From NCBI RefSeq assembly GCF_947494055.1, contig NZ_CANLTR010000008.1, positions 1-64,000 of the forward strand: 64,000 nt of DNA, in the 5' to 3' direction. Origin of the DNA: an uncultured Jannaschia sp. GTDB taxonomy: Bacteria; Pseudomonadota; Alphaproteobacteria; Rhodobacterales; Rhodobacteraceae. Below the pieces are notes generated by a model. That model made no database searches. It was not told where the DNA came from and saw nothing but the letters and a program-made list of their open reading frames with translations. The stretch's first letter is position 1. Every line of letters begins with the position of its first letter. Below, one piece after another: positions 3,918 to 16,976 of the stretch. The position numbers and the translations under genes are program-made.

Positions 3918-4153
3918 GCGGTCCTCATGAACCGCGCGTCGAGGGAGGCGCCGGTGCGGCGCTCGGTCTCCAGCCAGGCCTCGGCCTTGTTCCGGTCGTT
4001 GGCCTCGAAGAGCGCGGTGACGCCGGTCCCGTCCGCGTCGCGCCAGAGCTGCATGAGGGTGAGGCCCGCGTTCATGCGCCCTTCCATGTCGCGGTCGAAA
4101 TCCGCCTTCCAGGTGGTGTAGTCGGCGGGGGCGAGGTGGACGAGGAGGTTCAT
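3914..4153 (-). CDS. small hypothetical protein (possible ferredoxin-like monooxygenase/cyclase fold)
   Basis: 79 residues beginning MNLLVHLAPADYTTWKADFD. The layout (short strand, helix with acidic/aromatic residues, then VTALFEANDRNKAEAWLE) resembles small dimeric alpha/beta-barrel proteins, but this is only a fold impression and no catalytic residues are recognisable. The start at 4153 is preceded by GGAG in the minus sense. The stop overlaps the next start (ATGA at 3914-3917). First of the three-gene set preceding lpdA. Confidence 0.6.
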   Translation of the reverse strand: MNLLVHLAPADYTTWKADFDRDMEGRMNAGLTLMQLWRDADGTGVTALFEANDRNKAEAWLETERRTGASLDARFMRTA

Positions 4154-9536: not shown

Positions 9537-10850
9537 TCATACTAAGCTGGGAGAGTCGGACCTGTGACGGTTCGGGCCTTTCGCGGGTACGACGCTTAGT
9601 CCCCCCGCAAGGTCCTCGGCAATGCGCGTCGTCACCGATGCGCGGGAATAGTAGCGTCTCTGCATGTTCTGCAGCATATTTCCCTTCGAAGTCGCTGCCG
9701 CGGCGTCTCTGAGATAACTAATGCATTTTTCGGCAAATGCATCAGCCTCGTCGACCGGCTCGATCGCAGCGGCGATTTCCCTGCCGAACCCCGATCCCGA
9801 CAGCGTCGTCGCGACGACGGGACGCGCATACGCGCACCCCTCAATCACCTTGATCTGGGACCCGGCGCCCTCGCGAATGGGGCAGACGACCACGCGCGCG
9901 TCCGAATAGGCATCGGGCAGGTTGTCGACCGTGCCGACGATCCGGACCCCGGGCGTGTCACCGTAACGCGAGGCGACCTCCGCCCAGTCGCCGAAACCCA
10001 CGATCTTGAAAATCGCATCTGGGACGGCGGCATGCACACGGGGCCAGCAATTCTTGAGAAACCAGAGCACGCCCTGACGGTTCGGCATGTGACCCGCTCC
10101 GCCGATGAACATGACGGACTTTCCCTCTCCGGCCGGTCCGATCGCCTTGGCCTGTTCGGATGCGAACGGGACGTTCGGGACGACGGACTGGTTCAGGTCC
10201 GGCGCCGCGAACAGGTCCTCTTCTTTGGCGACCCAGACATGCCCCGCCGCGCGAAGCCGCTCCGTCATCAGGGACCGGACGCGCGACGTCAGGGCACGTG
10301 CGGCGAGGGACCCCGCGCCCGCTCCGAGACGCGAGCGAAGCTGGATAGCCATCTTTCGATCGTCGCGATCGTCGACGTCGACGATGACGCGTCGATCGGC
10401 ATCGCTCTCGTCCGTCAGGCCGGAGCGCGCGAATGTGAGGTAGTAGCGGAACACGACGATTGACCGGCCGCCCTTGCGCGTCATCTCGTCTAGTCGGGCC
10501 TTGAGATCCGGCTCGGCCGCCATGTCGGCGCGCGGCAGGCAGACGCGTCGGACGATCTTCCAGACCTTTCCGATCCGCCCGGTTGCGTAGATATCGAACG
10601 ATCTGACGGGAAGTCCCACAACGCGCGCCGCGCCGGGAAAGAATACGCCCGCATCGGTATCCTCCGGAACCCCCAGAAGGACGACCGTAACGGGATGGAT
10701 CGACCGCAGCACGTCGAAGAGGATACGCGTGCGCTGGCCGCCCCCGGTCATCGGATGCACGGCACCGGTCGGAACGACCAGATACACGTGGGCGGGCTCC
10801 GCCACCGGACGGAGGGATTTCGCTGTGTGTTCTGGACCGGTCCCTTCCAC
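9537..10850 (-). CDS. glycosyltransferase, GT4-like, embedded between sucD and sucA
   Basis: 437 residues. The second half has the GT-B/GT4 signature: VMFIGGAGHMPNRQGVLWFL, then DAIFKIVGFGDWAE, then CPIREGAGSQIKVIEGCAYARPVVAT, which places the donor-sugar binding E and G residues as in family 4 enzymes. The N-terminal GGGQRTRILFDVLRS is the usual acceptor-side Rossmann start. Donor and acceptor cannot be read from sequence. The GTG start at 10850 lies 3 nt after the sucD stop, and the gene ends 10 nt before the sucA start, so it is a true operon passenger. Together with the sulfotransferases upstream it may belong to a glycan pathway (inference). Confidence 0.8.
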   Translation of the reverse strand: MEGTGPEHTAKSLRPVAEPAHVYLVVPTGAVHPMTGGGQRTRILFDVLRSIHPVTVVLLGVPEDTDAGVFFPGAARVVGLPVRSFDIYATGRIGKVWKIVRRVCLPRADMAAEPDLKARLDEMTRKGGRSIVVFRYYLTFARSGLTDESDADRRVIVDVDDRDDRKMAIQLRSRLGAGAGSLAARALTSRVRSLMTERLRAAGHVWVAKEEDLFAAPDLNQSVVPNVPFASEQAKAIGPAGEGKSVMFIGGAGHMPNRQGVLWFLKNCWPRVHAAVPDAIFKIVGFGDWAEVASRYGDTPGVRIVGTVDNLPDAYSDARVVVCPIREGAGSQIKVIEGCAYARPVVATTLSGSGFGREIAAAIEPVDEADAFAEKCISYLRDAAAATSKGNMLQNMQRRYYSRASVTTRIAEDLAGGLSVVPAKGPNRHRSDSPSLV

Positions 10851-10853
10851 CCC

Positions 10854-11741
10854 TCAACCCCTGTCGATCGCTTCCTTCACCGCTTCGCCCAGCGTCGCCG
10901 GGCTGTCGGCGACGACGATGCCGGCGGCGCGCATGGCCTCGATCTTCGACTCGGCATCGCCCTTGCCGCCCGCGACGATGGCGCCCGCGTGGCCCATGCG
11001 ACGGCCCGGCGGGGCGGTGCGGCCGGCGATGAAGCCCGCCGTCGGCTTCCAGCGGCCGGCCTTCCTCTCGGAGGCGAGGAACGCGGCCGCGTCCTCCTCG
11101 GCGGTGCCGCCGATCTCGCCGATCATGATGATCGAGGTCGTCTCCGGATCGGCGAGGAACATCTCGAGCACGTCGATATGCTCGGTGCCCTTGATCGGGT
11201 CGCCGCCGATGCCCACCGCGGTGGACTGGCCGAGCCCCATGTCGGTGGTCTGCTTCACCGCTTCGTAGGTCAGCGTGCCGGAGCGCGAGACGACGCCGAC
11301 GGAGCCGCGCTTGTGGATTTGGCCGGGCATGATCCCGATCTTGCAGGCGTCTGGCGTAATGACGCCGGGGCAGTTCGGACCGACCAGCCGCGTCTTCGCG
11401 CCGTCGAGCGCGCGCTTCACCTTCATCATGTCGAGCACCGGGATCCCCTCCGTGATGCACACGACGAGCGGGATTTTCGCGTCGATCGCCTCGAGGATGG
11501 AATCGGCGGCGAAGGGGGGCGGGACGTAGATGACGGAGGCGTTCGCGCCGGTCTTGGCCACCGCCTCGTGGCAGCTGTCGAAGACGGGCAGGTCGAGATG
11601 GGTCTGACCGCCCTTGCCGGGCGTGACGCCGCCGACCATCTTCGTGCCGTAGGCGATCGCCTGTTCGGTATGGAACGTCCCCTGGGACCCGGTCAGGCCC
11701 TGGCAGATGACCCTGGTGTTCTCGTCGATAAGTATGGCCAT
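10854..11741 (-). CDS. sucD: succinyl-CoA synthetase (ADP/GDP-forming), alpha subunit
   Basis: 295 residues. Forms succinyl-CoA or releases it with nucleotide synthesis, together with SucC. CoA-binding Rossmann start [20 protein letters not shown], the ligase signature [12 protein letters not shown], and the phosphohistidine in [15 protein letters not shown] are all present. The start at 11741 has an excellent GCAGGAGG upstream; a second copy of this start region occurs at 13071-13094. sucC is about 4 kb upstream instead of adjacent, because four cargo genes lie between. Confidence 0.97.
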
Positions 11742-11768
11742 CCGGGCCTCCTGCGGTGTGTCGTTCGG

Positions 11769-12920
11769 TTATTGCGGCGGCGCGGCGGGCGGCGCGTCGC
11801 CGGACCCGTTCCCCCCCGAGGAGCGGTGGCGTCGTGCGGCCCGGCCCTTGCGTGCGCCTTTGGGTGCCGTCCGGCCGCGGCCGCCCTTGCCCTGCGCACG
11901 AAGCGTCAGAAGCAGGTCGAGGCCGGCCCGCGCCACATCCTCGGCACGAAGGGCCGGCTCGTCCGCCTGCGGGTCCGGGCGCGCGGGGAACAGGACGTCG
12001 CGATCGGGGAAGAAGCGGGCGCGGAGCCGCTCGTTCGACGCCGCGTTGACCTCCCGCACATGCCGGACCTGCTCGGCGTTCAGGCGGACCTTCGGGAGAT
12101 CGAGCGTCTGCCGCTCCAGCGCCTGCCGGACCGCCAGCTTGCGGGGGTCGACCCTGGTCCCGTCGCTCGAGAAATGATTCATCCGCTCGTTGGCCACGCG
12201 CAGGAGGGCCGCCCCGGCCGCGCTGAGGGACTCGTTCAGGCGGGGGGCGTCCGCAAGGCCTTCGAGATCGGTTCCGATCCGCGCGGCGAAGTCCGCGACG
12301 AGGTCGCCGTCCCGAAGGGCGTCGCGTTCCGTCAGGCCGATCTCGACCCGATCCTTGCCGAGCGTGTCAGCCCAGAGCGCCGCCTTCGCATGCCAGTCCT
12401 GGACAGCGGATTGCGCGACGACCTGCGGCAGGGTCTCGGTCACGCCGCGCTTCAGGTCCTGGGAGTAGGCGCTGGCGAGCCAGTCCTCCTGTCGGCGGAC
12501 GTAGAAGATGTATCGCGTCGCGTCGAAGAACTGCGCGAGCCAGCTTTCCAGGGCCTCGACTTCGGCGGGCGTATGGGTATGGGCTGCGATGTATTCCGAC
12601 GAGACGATGAAGACCGGCTCTCGGCGCGACCGGACATGTGCGCCGAAGAACTCCTCGAAGGTCCGGACGAACCTTTTTTGGTCCGACAGGTCGGTGATCC
12701 CGTGGACGCGGCGCACGAAGGCGCTTTCCACGAGGCGCCCGAGCCGATGGCTGTGGCAGATCTTGATGCCTTCGTGGGCCGTGCTCGGGTAATGCCCCGG
12801 CAGCGACAGCCTGTCGTAGCCGACGCCGCGGGACGACAGCGCCGCGGCGTTGATGTCGAGCCATCGCTGGATCGAGGTGGAGCCGCATTTCGGCATGCCG
12901 ATATGGACGATCGCCTTCAC
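11769..12920 (-). CDS. sulfotransferase-like protein (tandem copy 1)
   Basis: 383 residues. Begins MKAIVHIGMPKCGSTSIQ: the GMPKCGST loop (residues 8-15) is the 5'-phosphosulfate-binding P-loop of PAPS-dependent sulfotransferases. A second conserved patch, YVRRQEDWLASAYSQ (about 140-154), carries the Arg and Ser expected of the 3'-phosphate site. The C-terminal 50 residues are a Lys/Arg/Pro-rich tail absent from copy 2. About half of all positions match copy 2 by eye, so the two arose by duplication. The gene ends 27 nt before sucD and lies in the sucC-sucD interval. Acceptor unknown. Confidence 0.8.
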   Translation of the reverse strand: MKAIVHIGMPKCGSTSIQRWLDINAAALSSRGVGYDRLSLPGHYPSTAHEGIKICHSHRLGRLVESAFVRRVHGITDLSDQKRFVRTFEEFFGAHVRSRREPVFIVSSEYIAAHTHTPAEVEALESWLAQFFDATRYIFYVRRQEDWLASAYSQDLKRGVTETLPQVVAQSAVQDWHAKAALWADTLGKDRVEIGLTERDALRDGDLVADFAARIGTDLEGLADAPRLNESLSAAGAALLRVANERMNHFSSDGTRVDPRKLAVRQALERQTLDLPKVRLNAEQVRHVREVNAASNERLRARFFPDRDVLFPARPDPQADEPALRAEDVARAGLDLLLTLRAQGKGGRGRTAPKGARKGRAARRHRSSGGNGSGDAPPAAPPQ

Positions 12921-13070
12921 GATCCGGATGGCCCCCGCCGTGCGGTCGGGGGCGACGTCCCGGTCCGTGGCGCGCCCCGCGGGCCGGACCCGGACCGCAC
13001 CGCGCGCGCCGGTCGCCGGGGAACGCGATCCGCCAGGGCGGCCTGCGGGAGGTCGGATCGTCCGCCTACG

Positions 13071-13094
13071 AGAATGGCCATCCCGGCCTCCTGC
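13071..13094 (-). repeat. relic copy of the sucD ribosome-binding site and start codon
   Basis: Read on the minus strand this is GCAGGAGGCCGGGATGGCCA followed by TTCT. The true sucD start region (11731-11754) has the same 24 positions with two substitutions. The copy lies in the 231-bp gap between the two sulfotransferase genes and is not followed by recognisable sucD coding sequence. It therefore looks like a scar left when a unit of sulfotransferase plus sucD start was duplicated. Confidence 0.7.
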
Positions 13095-13151
13095 ATTTCA
13101 TCGCCCCGTTCGGAGGTCGCGCGCCGTGTCTCGACCTTCGGGACGCTGGAC

Positions 13152-14210
13152 TCAAGCGCTTTGGGGTTCCTTCGTGGAATCACGGCCCTGAAGCGCCAGC
13201 ATCACGTCGAGCGCGACGGTCGCGACATCCTCCGCGCGCAGGGCCGGGCCGTTCGTATCCGAGACGGGACGCGGGGGGAACAGCTCCTCGCGGTCCGGAA
13301 AGAACCGGTCCCGCAGCTTGGCGTTGCCCGTCGCGTTCACCTCCCGCACCTGCGCGACCTGCGCCGCATCGAGCTTGATCTTCGGCAGCTTCAGCGTCTG
13401 TTGCAGGAGGGCCCGCCGGATCGCGATCTTCTGCGGGTTCACCCTGCGTCCGTTGTCGACCGTGTGGTCGATCTGGGTGTTCACCACGCGGAGGTATTCG
13501 GCGCCTGCGGCGGTGAGGGACTCGTTCTGGCGCTGCGGGGTCGCGAGGCCTTCGGCTGTGGTCCCGATGCGGTTCGCGAAATCCTCGAGCAGGTCGCCGC
13601 CGATCAGGAAATCAGGCTCCAGCAGGCGGACATCCACCCGATCGTCCCCGACGGTGTTTCCCCAGATGGCCGCCCTGCGGAACCAGTTCTGCTTGGCGTC
13701 GCCCTCGATCATCTCGGAAAGCGTCTGCGTCACGCCGCGCTTGATGCGCTCCGAGTAGGAACTCGCCAGCCAGTCCTCCTGCCGGCGGAAATAGACTAGG
13801 TAGCGGATGTCGTCGAAATACTGTCCGAGCCAGCTTTCGAGCGCGCGGACACCTTTCGGCGTCTTCGTGTTGGCGCCGAGATATTCCGACGAGACGACGA
13901 AGGTCGATTCCTTCCGCTTACGCACGAGATTGCCGAAATACTCGGAGAATTTCCGGGCGAAGCGTCGCTGGTCCTCGAGCGAGAAGATGTTGTGCGCCCG
14001 GCGGATCGTCGGGTTCTCGACCACCGCGCCGAGCAGGTCGTTCTGGCAGATCTTGATGCCTTGATGCGCGATCGTCACCGGATAGCCGGGCATGCTCGCA
14101 TTGTCGTAGGCGATCCCCCGCGCGGCCAGCGCCTCGGCATTCTCGTTCAGCCAGTTCTGGATCGTGGTGGAGCCGCATTTCGGCATCCCGATATGGACGA
14201 TGACTTTCAT
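13152..14210 (-). CDS. sulfotransferase-like protein (tandem copy 2)
   Basis: 352 residues, starting MKVIVHIGMPKCGSTTIQ with the same PAPS P-loop as copy 1, then the VSSEY and YFRRQEDWLASSYSERIKRG blocks (3'-phosphate region). It aligns with copy 1 from start to about residue 345. The start at 14210 overlaps the stop of the upstream lipoprotein gene (ATGA at 14207-14210), so translation is coupled. It is in the operon between sucC and sucD. The acceptor is not predictable; the nearby glycosyltransferase and lipoproteins make an envelope glycan conceivable (inference). Confidence 0.8.
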   Translation of the reverse strand: MKVIVHIGMPKCGSTTIQNWLNENAEALAARGIAYDNASMPGYPVTIAHQGIKICQNDLLGAVVENPTIRRAHNIFSLEDQRRFARKFSEYFGNLVRKRKESTFVVSSEYLGANTKTPKGVRALESWLGQYFDDIRYLVYFRRQEDWLASSYSERIKRGVTQTLSEMIEGDAKQNWFRRAAIWGNTVGDDRVDVRLLEPDFLIGGDLLEDFANRIGTTAEGLATPQRQNESLTAAGAEYLRVVNTQIDHTVDNGRRVNPQKIAIRRALLQQTLKLPKIKLDAAQVAQVREVNATGNAKLRDRFFPDREELFPPRPVSDTNGPALRAEDVATVALDVMLALQGRDSTKEPQSA

Positions 14211-14869
14211 TCTCGGAGTTCCGCTGTCTGGCTTGGGCCGTGCACGATCAGGATCACCGGGTGATCGAACACGGCGCCTTCGCCGGTTTCGGGGTTCAGG
14301 AACAACGTGCGCGCCTGTTGCAAGGTGATGGAGAGTCCGTCGAAAAAGAACCCGACACCCCCGTCGATGTTACGTCCCGCGCCGCGGGGCGCGGCCAGCG
14401 TGTCGCTGCCATCGACGAGGCGCGGCGCGAGGATCTCGCCGACGAGCCGGTTGGCCCGGTCGATCCCGACAGCGGGCGAGCCGACGGAACAGCCGCTGCC
14501 GCGGACGACCTGCCGCGCACCGGTCGCGTCGTTGTAGAACTGGTCCGGGACGGGACCGATCCGCACGAAGGTGAGGGTTCCGGGATTGGCGTAGATCGTC
14601 GAGCCCCCGTCGCGCTCTCGGACGGGAAAGTTCAATCCGCGCGCGGCCCGGTCCTGCGCGCTCTGGGAGCTGTTGTTGAGGCAGACCGCCTCCGCCGCGA
14701 ACCGCATCCGCTGCGCCGCGATGTCGGAAACGCCCGGCTCGAACCCGTTGGTGGTCGAGACGCAGCCGGCGAGGGCAAGGGGGAGAAGAGGTGCAAACCT
14801 TTTCGTCAGGCCAGTTCGGATCCACGCCCCGAACCTAAACTGGCGCCCTGCATTTTGTGCCGCCGTCAT
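14207..14869 (-). CDS. putative lipoprotein, function unknown
   Basis: 220 residues with a basic N-region, hydrophobic LTKRFAPLLPLALAGC and a lipobox (LAGC, Cys about residue 36). The mature part is about 185 residues with two further cysteines and no family that I recognise. The chosen ATG at 14869 is the last one before the signal peptide; an upstream in-frame extension lacks support and would overlap the preceding gene. It overlaps the next sulfotransferase gene by 4 nt and follows the other lipoprotein gene by 2 nt, so both belong to the sucC-sucD cargo. Confidence 0.6.
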   Translation of the reverse strand: MTAAQNAGRQFRFGAWIRTGLTKRFAPLLPLALAGCVSTTNGFEPGVSDIAAQRMRFAAEAVCLNNSSQSAQDRAARGLNFPVRERDGGSTIYANPGTLTFVRIGPVPDQFYNDATGARQVVRGSGCSVGSPAVGIDRANRLVGEILAPRLVDGSDTLAAPRGAGRNIDGGVGFFFDGLSITLQQARTLFLNPETGEGAVFDHPVILIVHGPSQTAELRE

Positions 14870-14871
14870 TG

Positions 14872-15534
14872 TCAGCAGCCTTCTCGCTGAGATGCCGAGA
14901 GAGACCTGTTCCTGCACGTCGGGTCGGACGCGCCATCGAGGTGATATAGCGTGATGGAGGCCGGCCGGTTCGCGGCGGGAGAGTCGGGACCGGCGCCTAC
15001 GAGTGCAAAGCGCGTTCCATTGCCGATCCAACGCTCGATCCCGCCACCGAAAGGCCCTTGTCCGACTTCCATGCGACGATAGCCGGCAGCTTCCAGCGTC
15101 GAGGAAGCTCGGGTGAAGACGTCCGGGCCCAAGGTGTAAGGCTGAACGTCTATCGTGCAGGCGATCCGCGGCGTGTCGTAGACCGACACCGTGATCGGGG
15201 TGCTGAAGCCGAAGAGGGACGGTATCTGTTCGGCGCTTTGCTTGACGAAGATCGTTCGACCAAGCGACATCGTTTCAATGTAGCCGTCTGTCCGAAGCGC
15301 TTGCAGCGTATCTGGACCGGACAGCTCGCTCCGACGGCAGGCATCAGTGAGACGTTGGGCCTCGACATCCTGGTTTAAGCCGACGCTCCCTGGAATATCG
15401 GGTCCGACCAAGATTTGCTGGCAAGCCGACAGGCCGAGCGTCAAACCGGCGACAATCAGCGAAAGGCGCAGACGCCGATTGCAGAGGGCAGATACCCTGT
15501 TCCAGATGGAATGGTGCCGCGACCCCAACAACAC
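14872..15534 (-). CDS. putative lipoprotein, function unknown
   Basis: About 220 residues if it starts at the GTG at 15534 (AGGA lies just upstream); there is no ATG near the signal peptide, so the start is uncertain. Signal peptide and lipobox: [20 protein letters not shown]. The mature part contains [16 protein letters not shown] and ends with two cysteines. No domain recognised. It is the first cargo gene after sucC, separated from it by about 250 bp, the widest gap inside the sucC-sucD interval, so an internal promoter there is possible. Confidence 0.55.
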
Positions 15535-15782: not shown

Positions 15783-16976
15783 TCACCCCTTCACCGCCTT
15801 CACGATCTTCTGCGCGCCGTCCTTCAGGTCGTCGGCCGCGATCACGTCGAGCCCGGACTGGTTGATGATCTCCTTGCCCCGCTCGACATTCGTGCCTTCG
15901 AGCCGGACGACGAGCGGCACCTGCAGCCCGACCTCCTTCACCGCGGCGATCACGCCCTCGGCGATGACGTCGCAGCGCATGATGCCGCCGAAGATGTTGA
16001 CGAGGATGCCCTTCACGTTCGGGTCCGAGGTGATGATCTTGAACGCCTCGGTCACCTTCTCCTTGGTGGCGCCGCCGCCCACGTCGAGGAAGTTCGCGGG
16101 CTCCGCCCCGTAGAGCTTGATGATGTCCATCGTCGCCATCGCGAGGCCGGCGCCGTTGACCATGCAGCCGATCTCGCCGTCGAGCGCGATGTAGTTCAGG
16201 TCGTACTTGGAGGCGGCGAGCTCCTTGGAATCCTCCTCCGTCTCGTCGCGCAGCTCGGCGATGTCCTTGTGGCGGTAGATCGCGTTGCCGTCGAACCCGA
16301 CCTTCGCGTCGAGCACCTTGAGGTCGCCGGTATCGGTCACGATCAGCGGGTTGATCTCCAGCATCTCCATGTCCTTCTCGACGAAGGCCTTGTAGAGGAC
16401 ACCCATCAGGTTGACGCATTGCTTGACCTGCGTGCCTTCGAGGCCGAGCTCGAAGGCCACGCGACGGCCGTGCCAGGGCTGGTAGCCGGTGGCCGGATCG
16501 ACGTCGAAGCTCAGGATCCGCCCGGGGGTGGAGGCGGCGACCTCCTCGATGTCCATGCCGCCCTCGGTCGAGCAGACGAACCCGATCCGGCTCGTCTGGC
16601 GGTCGACCAGCAGCGCCAGGTAGAGCTCGCGCGCGATGTCGGAGCCGTCCTCGATATAGATGCGGTTGACCTGCTTGCCAGCCGGCCCGGTCTGATGCGT
16701 CACGAGCGTCCGGCCCAGCATGCGGCGCGCTTCCCCGGCCGCGTCCTCGACCGACCTGGCGATCCGGACGCCGCCCTTCTCGCCGGCATCGGCCTCCTTG
16801 AAGGAGCCCTTGCCGCGCCCCCCCGCGTGGATCTGCGCCTTCACGACCCAGAGCGGCCCGTCGAGCCGGCTCGCCGCGTCCTTCGCATCCGCCGCACGCG
16901 TGACCGCCACGCCATCGCCGACCGGCGCGCCGTAATCCCGCAGGAGAGCCTTGGCCTGATATTCGTGGATGTTCAT
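15783..16976 (-). CDS. sucC: succinyl-CoA synthetase beta subunit
   Basis: 397 residues, standard length. ATP-grasp N-terminal domain ([34 protein letters not shown]), Mg/nucleotide residues in EINPLIVT, and the C-terminal ligase/CoA domain with [13 protein letters not shown] and [15 protein letters not shown]. It catalyses the substrate-level phosphorylation step with SucD. The start at 16976 matches the invariant family N-terminus. The sucC-sucD pair normally adjacent in bacteria is split here by two lipoprotein and two sulfotransferase genes. Confidence 0.97.

Follow-up and report, generated by a model that had tools for sequence, protein, structure and literature searches.

The window considered here, bases 1-64000 of contig C8 in the 4.75-Mb, 276-contig genome of a marine bacterium, carries on its minus strand an operon with genes of the tricarboxylic acid (TCA) cycle in the order mdh, sucC, lp1, lp2, STa, a copied start, STb, sucD, a glycosyltransferase gene, sucA and sucB; the mdh and suc names, sucB included, were assigned from the translations and are what we take these genes to be. 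STa and STb are sulfotransferase-like genes that match at 56% over 343 amino acids, and the copied start is a second copy of the translation-initiation region of sucD (Table 1). An initial annotation of this DNA had placed the copy between two homologous sulfotransferase genes, which is where it lies. An orthologous copy occurs in the closest relative, another member of the genus (G017), and from the comparison of the two we tentatively suggest that the copy arose in their common ancestor and may now serve the translation of STb.

Table 1. Features of the sucC-sucD interval and its borders in the window
Feature	Position	Strand	Remarks
sucD (succinyl-CoA ligase alpha subunit), from which the start was copied	10854..11741	-	ATG at 11741
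Genuine sucD translation-initiation region	11731..11754	-	AGGAGG, 5-nt spacing, ATG GCC
STb, sulfotransferase-like gene	11769..12920	-	GTG start; C-terminal extension of ~40 residues past the part in common with STa
54-codon ORF starting at the copied ATG	12917..13081	-	TGA overlaps GTG of STb (GTGA); Arg/Pro/Gly-rich
Spacer, copied start to STb	12921..13065	-	Matches neither sucD nor the lp2 3' end significantly
Copy of the sucD translation-initiation region	13071..13094	-	22/24; ATG at 13081; orthologous, more eroded copy in G017
STa, sulfotransferase-like gene	13152..14210	-	82% to the single copy of G017; ATG overlaps lp2 stop (ATGA)
lp2, gene upstream of sucD	14207..15031	-	Present in 18/19 other genus members fetched
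sucC, upstream border of the slot	15783..16976	-	

A second sucD start between STa and STb

On the minus strand, the sucD start at 11754-11731 (GCAGGAGGCCCGGATGGCCATACT) recurs at 13094-13071 (GCAGGAGGCCGGGATGGCCATTCT) with 2 mismatches in 24, as had been claimed for it, and the second-best place in the window for the sucD-start 24-mer has 6 mismatches. The gapped score of the copy, 38, was attained by 1/5000 dinucleotide shuffles of the gap. Against its own sucD the copy scored 26/33, the next two of 692 open reading frames (ORFs) with a Shine-Dalgarno sequence and an ATG (at least 50 codons, sampled from 457 kb of the same genome) scoring 21; when the best of 21 sucD alleles served as reference, its score was 26 and that of the next three among the 692 was 23. 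When each side of the ATG was scored separately against the sucD starts of the genus, with the 11,280 ATGs in 457 kb for comparison, the copy was the best non-self match on both sides: 15/16 after the ATG, to the sucD of two other genus members, L053 and L059 (one ATG at 14), and 12/14 before it (33 ATGs at 11). The pattern AGGAGG-N5-ATGGCC occurs at only 7 sites in 4.75 Mb, two of these in the suc operon. Judged by such comparisons, the 24-bp match is not due to chance, a point on which the initial annotation had made its interpretation depend. The 12/14 match before the ATG is to the window's own sucD, the best among the alleles, and the 16 bases after the copied ATG agree with the sucD of the window or of G017 at only 11/16; a best upstream match to the resident gene together with a best downstream match to L053 and L059 fits a copy made within the lineage and older than the codon changes common to the window and G017.

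Clear similarity between the copy and the sucD start is limited to ~24-35 bp, with nothing significant beyond ~35 bp within the window, and the extended similarity named earlier as possible support was not seen: the 3' flanks of the two starts beyond the start site were matched as well by 721/1000 shuffles, in a test whose power was only 0.57. The ORF from the copied ATG reads MAILVGGRSDLPQ..., which is not sucD coding sequence, and no alignment of the window spacer with the sucD of 20 relatives rose above shuffles, in agreement with the earlier statement that no sucD coding sequence follows the copy. The idea that a complete sucD once lay between STa and STb and then decayed was rejected on these comparisons with relatives and because the match of the spacer to its own sucD was equalled by 367/1000 shuffles; in G017, 45/1000 shuffles did as well for the spacer against that genome's own sucD, a weak result that comparison with relatives' sucD did not support. 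Also rejected as the source of the copy was a second sucCD locus, since the sucD start on contig C34 of G000 (ggggtaacgccATGTCCATTCTG) lacks the copy's Shine-Dalgarno sequence and second codon. That contig (L152 6061-8167) carries a compact second sucCD pair, 69-71% identical to the one in the operon, in which sucC and sucD nearly abut. Nor do start copies follow a general rule at insertions: among 50 gaps of the window and its relatives (27 sucC-sucD, 23 sucD-sucA), compared with the sucD or sucA start that they precede, only the window's sucC-sucD gap beat all its 100 shuffles, and none beat shuffles among 16 further gaps at 8 sulfotransferase loci, a ninth locus being without sucD.

The locus was compared in 19 other genus members and one genome from another genus. 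G017 alone among the 19 has a sulfotransferase upstream of sucD, in single copy, 82% to STa and 57% to STb; among the other 18, STa drew only weak matches from 8 genomes (best E 1.6e-13) and nothing from 10. Window and G017 form a clade in the mdh-sucC-sucD tree (100/100) with a long stem (0.087, vs tips of 0.038 and 0.019), and their sucD sequences are 96% identical. The copied start of G017 follows its sulfotransferase in register (L047, ATG at 4130), 247 bp upstream of the real start, and matches its own sucD start at 16/24, the window's sucD start at 17/24 and the window copy at 19/24. Taken alone it lies within shuffle range (17/27 to its own sucD start, shuffle maximum 18), and its orthology is concluded from its position and from its alignment to the window, in which 69/96 positions are identical; the two species do not differ in AGGAGG or ATGGCC. 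The presence of the copy in G017 means that it predates the species split, and its occurrence there beside one sulfotransferase means that it does not need a second one today. Relatives with a single sulfotransferase before sucD, which had been sought as support for an ancestral single gene, do exist (G017 and, in other genera, G231, G026, G208, G061 and G210). The five from other genera have no start copy above shuffles, whereas G017 already carries the copied start.

Proposed origin and retention of the copied start

In a tree of 26 sequences, STb is sister to STa plus the G017 protein (99/98), with G231 next; for this tree the two halves of G063_2 were separated and four long-branched rows, G173, G253, G325 and G425, the last three of them suc-operon members, were left out. 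A first tree that kept G063_2 as one 659-aa double ORF gave the same sister relation (99/96). The proportion of synonymous differences (pS) is 0.50 between STa and STb, 0.35 between STa and G017, and 0.57-0.58 for pairs with G231, while lp2 of the window gives 0.53 and 0.67 against two genus members; because the STa-STb value is not above those of lp2, a duplication on the stem of window plus G017 is allowed. The corresponding nonsynonymous proportion (pN) is 0.28 for STa-STb vs 0.10 for STa-G017, i.e. amino-acid change has been faster. The kinship and the synonymous distance thus accommodate the tandem duplication of an ancestral single sulfotransferase together with the start of sucD, as first proposed, but the expected junction was not seen, and because the copied start of G017 stands beside just one sulfotransferase, this model also requires that STb was lost there. 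The sister relation of STa and STb makes it possible that a local duplication took place and that G017 later lost STb.

The subsequent decay of the copy, likewise proposed at first, fits G017 better than the window. From the intergenic divergence of window and G017 and the tree, ~61% identity is expected under neutrality if the copy dates to the STa/STb node; the 22/24 of the window copy is well above this (rough p 9e-4), while 17/24 or 16/24 in G017 is not (p 0.22 or 0.37). The copy looks to have been kept where STb follows, suggestive of selection. The copied ATG opens 54 codons, and the TGA that closes them overlaps the STb GTG as GTGA (12917-12920). This ORF has no Pfam match and is probably a leader without a conserved product. 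There is no AGGAGG before the STb GTG, the nearest run of G (GGGGG) ending 11 nt upstream. The simplest functional explanation would be that the borrowed initiation site feeds STb by coupling, which, given the small numbers and a borrowed clock, we put forward as a hypothesis.

The explanation that we prefer, with confidence somewhat short of even, is that the copy is a true second sucD start from the ancestor of the window and G017, kept in the window, where it may feed STb by coupling, and eroding in G017. In the common ancestor a sulfotransferase-bearing segment would have been duplicated or inserted directly before sucD, making the copy. In the window the copy would not simply have decayed, having a full Shine-Dalgarno sequence and ATG that open the leader ORF, and ribosomes that enter at the copied sucD start could initiate anew on the STb GTG by translational coupling; in G017, which lacks STb, the copy would be eroding.

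Several observations weigh against this explanation. A simple tandem duplication predicts that the region before STa should follow the copy, yet the match of the spacer to the lp2 3' end was equalled by 181/1000 shuffles (power of 0.945 for the distance expected and of 0.03 for double that distance); the spacer is not explained by simple duplication. A comparison of the spacer with the longer lp1-lp2 region was weak (15/300 shuffles as good) and was not counted as a match. No remnant of the STb body is visible in the G017 gap, and G017 still has the Shine-Dalgarno sequence and ATGGCC though it is without STb. The neutral test is rough, because its protein clock is borrowed, the 69/96 stretch includes the copy and the 24-mer was picked for matching; had the copy arisen no earlier than the species split, a match of 22/24 would be nothing unusual (p 0.21). 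Chance could also account for the GTGA overlap, because high G+C keeps frames open. Predicted RNA accessibility gives no clear support for coupling: the copied Shine-Dalgarno sequence has a predicted mean unpaired value of 0.13 vs 0.41 for the genuine one, and the predicted openness of the STb start (0.35/0.34) is only somewhat below that of the STa, sucA and sucC starts.

The absence of a clear local source for the spacer suits instead a separate arrival of STb, which we consider rather unlikely. Here a segment of spacer plus STb would have been inserted at the sucD start, with recombination duplicating that start, or an ancestral sulfotransferase would have brought a donor's sucD start, leaving a scar, with STb entering the window lineage afterwards, between this scar and sucD. 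The presence of the copied start beside just one sulfotransferase in G017 agrees with such an arrival, and so does the appearance of its gap, in which both ends of the window segment, the bases after the copy and the last ~48 bp before sucD, are visible. The G017 stretch after the copy was matched to the window spacer as well by 25/500 shuffles, the middle part of the gap to the window gap plus STb by 43/500, and the gap to the 3' part of STb by 0/500, the last result resting mainly on the ~48 bp before sucD, which are significant alone. Paired sulfotransferases elsewhere are not always sisters, which gives separate arrival a precedent: in Tropicimonas, outside the operon, the two members belong to groups that are clearly distinct, and the 13 kb seen there contain no suc gene; in G063, inside it, one half of the fused pair groups in the tree with G223 and G229 and the other falls outside that group. 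Against separate arrival stand the sister relation of STb to STa plus G017 among the 26 sequences, the best match of the copy's upstream bases to the resident lineage, and the failure to find a donor: no close relative turned up in the 18 other genus genomes, and a search for a mobile carrier gave no phage match and only distant plasmid matches, at most 30% identical in the 8 records listed out of 9.

If, as the initial annotation had it, the copy were a neutral relic of tandem duplication with no present role, the sister relation and pS would apply equally, and AGGAGG-ATG by itself is no proof of translation; this version is nonetheless improbable, as the window copy is better preserved than neutral flanks predict, and its AGGAGG and ATGGCC are unchanged between two species whose surrounding intergenic DNA is 72% identical. 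Least probable of all is an independent origin, in which a short leader ORF whose start is strong but generic came to resemble sucD by convergence, since, although the G017 version is within shuffles and two of the five remaining genomic AGGAGG-N5-ATGGCC sites likewise read AGGAGGCC[CG]G, that pattern is rare and the window copy matches sucD after the ATG better than any other of the ATGs scored.

Neighbouring features of the operon

The conserved part of lp2 begins only at about residue 72-92 in all 18 genus members having the gene, and its true start is therefore probably internal. The extra C-terminal residues of STb (window 11769-11891) are rich in Arg, Gly and Pro; this tail looks like the result of a stop lost into a former intergenic region, and the TAA of STb has a counterpart before sucD in G017. 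In sucD, which was matched in 57/60 genomes searched, own genome counted, codons 3-4 (window 11730-11735) are ATA CTT in the window and G017, while the 19 other starts compared have ATT or ATC followed by CTC or CTG. The glycosyltransferase gene between sucD and sucA (window 9537-10850, Glyco_trans_1_4) is 73% in G017 and has a 46% relative in G005 (L057), placed after sucD there, so the sucD-sucA junction is also a variable slot.

A sulfotransferase slot in the suc operon

STa and STb have the sulfotransferase fold; a Foldseek search by itself found no PDB structure at E 0.001, and a second look, by VIA, was clearer. No Pfam or NCBIfam family matched either protein at E 0.001; PF13469 reached E 0.024 with STa (15.3 bits, below the cut-off of 27) and 1.8e-4 with the best among 13 relatives. 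STa and STb differ from the 3'-phosphoadenosine-5'-phosphosulfate (PAPS)-dependent sulfotransferases (Pfam Sulfotransfer_3; heparan-sulfate-type folds) in lacking a profile match at E 0.001, and also in that the best-scoring members of their group lie mostly inside the suc operon. In a family set of 394 genomes from 393 genera (G017 not being among the genomes with a match), STa as sole query gave matches at E 1e-50 or better in five other genomes, each of them located between sucC and sucD. A 13-row profile built from similarity matches hit 51/394 genomes at E 1e-25, and the context of the best match was examined in the best 30 of these 51. Sixteen of the 19 top-scoring loci (L111-L129, own genome included) are inside the suc operon, 14 between sucC and sucD (counting G223, where the contig breaks off too early for sucD to be seen) and 2 between sucD and sucA; the others are G265 and G180, seen in 18-kb stretches, and G331, seen in 1.5-kb flanks. 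None of the next 11 loci is in the suc operon, as judged on 1.5-kb flanks. In G032 and G035 the sucC stop and the sucD ATG are just 4 bp apart, which indicates that the slot can be empty.

Variants of the arrangement were also seen. The sulfotransferase gene lies between sucD and sucA rather than sucC and sucD in G325 (L147 5324-6268) and G253 (L146 6082-7086), and G063 (L144 4444-6354) has two sulfotransferases, 33% identical, fused in one frame between sucC and sucD. In a Rhodobacteraceae metagenome-assembled genome (L075 4686-12351), mdh, a sulfotransferase gene and sucA follow in order with no sucC or sucD match between. The pair of G265 may be sisters (91/92; 40% identical). Literature searches brought up nothing on this topic in the titles and opening lines of abstracts that they listed.

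Insertion or duplication of genes inside core operons is known, both as xenologous insertion and as tandem duplication, and the present locus resembles these cases in having extra non-pathway genes, among them a paralogous pair, between conserved TCA-cycle genes and in the same orientation. It differs from them in that the translation start of the downstream core gene is copied before the added gene, and in that the same sulfotransferase group recurs at the suc slot in many genera. Translational coupling by ATGA or GTGA start-stop overlap is also known. The leader TGA on the STb GTG and the ATGA overlap of lp2 and STa are of this type, but the upstream partner of the putative coupling is a non-conserved 54-codon ORF whose start is seemingly borrowed from sucD. 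The locus is ordinary in kind, as gene growth inside an operon; what sets it apart is the unusual reuse of a core gene start, along with the tie between a sulfotransferase group and this operon.

More broadly, and with considerable doubt, the sucC-sucD junction of the Roseobacteraceae might be a recurrent slot for a dedicated sulfotransferase group, at which an added gene can capture a copy of the sucD start ('start capture'). The locus offers one roughly datable case of gene addition inside a core operon in which the downstream gene kept an intact start. In many genera of Roseobacteraceae this sulfotransferase group goes with the TCA operon, which suggests that exchange takes place at one fixed location, and, if start capture is true, an initiation signal of the TCA cycle would now drive a surface- or metabolite-modifying enzyme.

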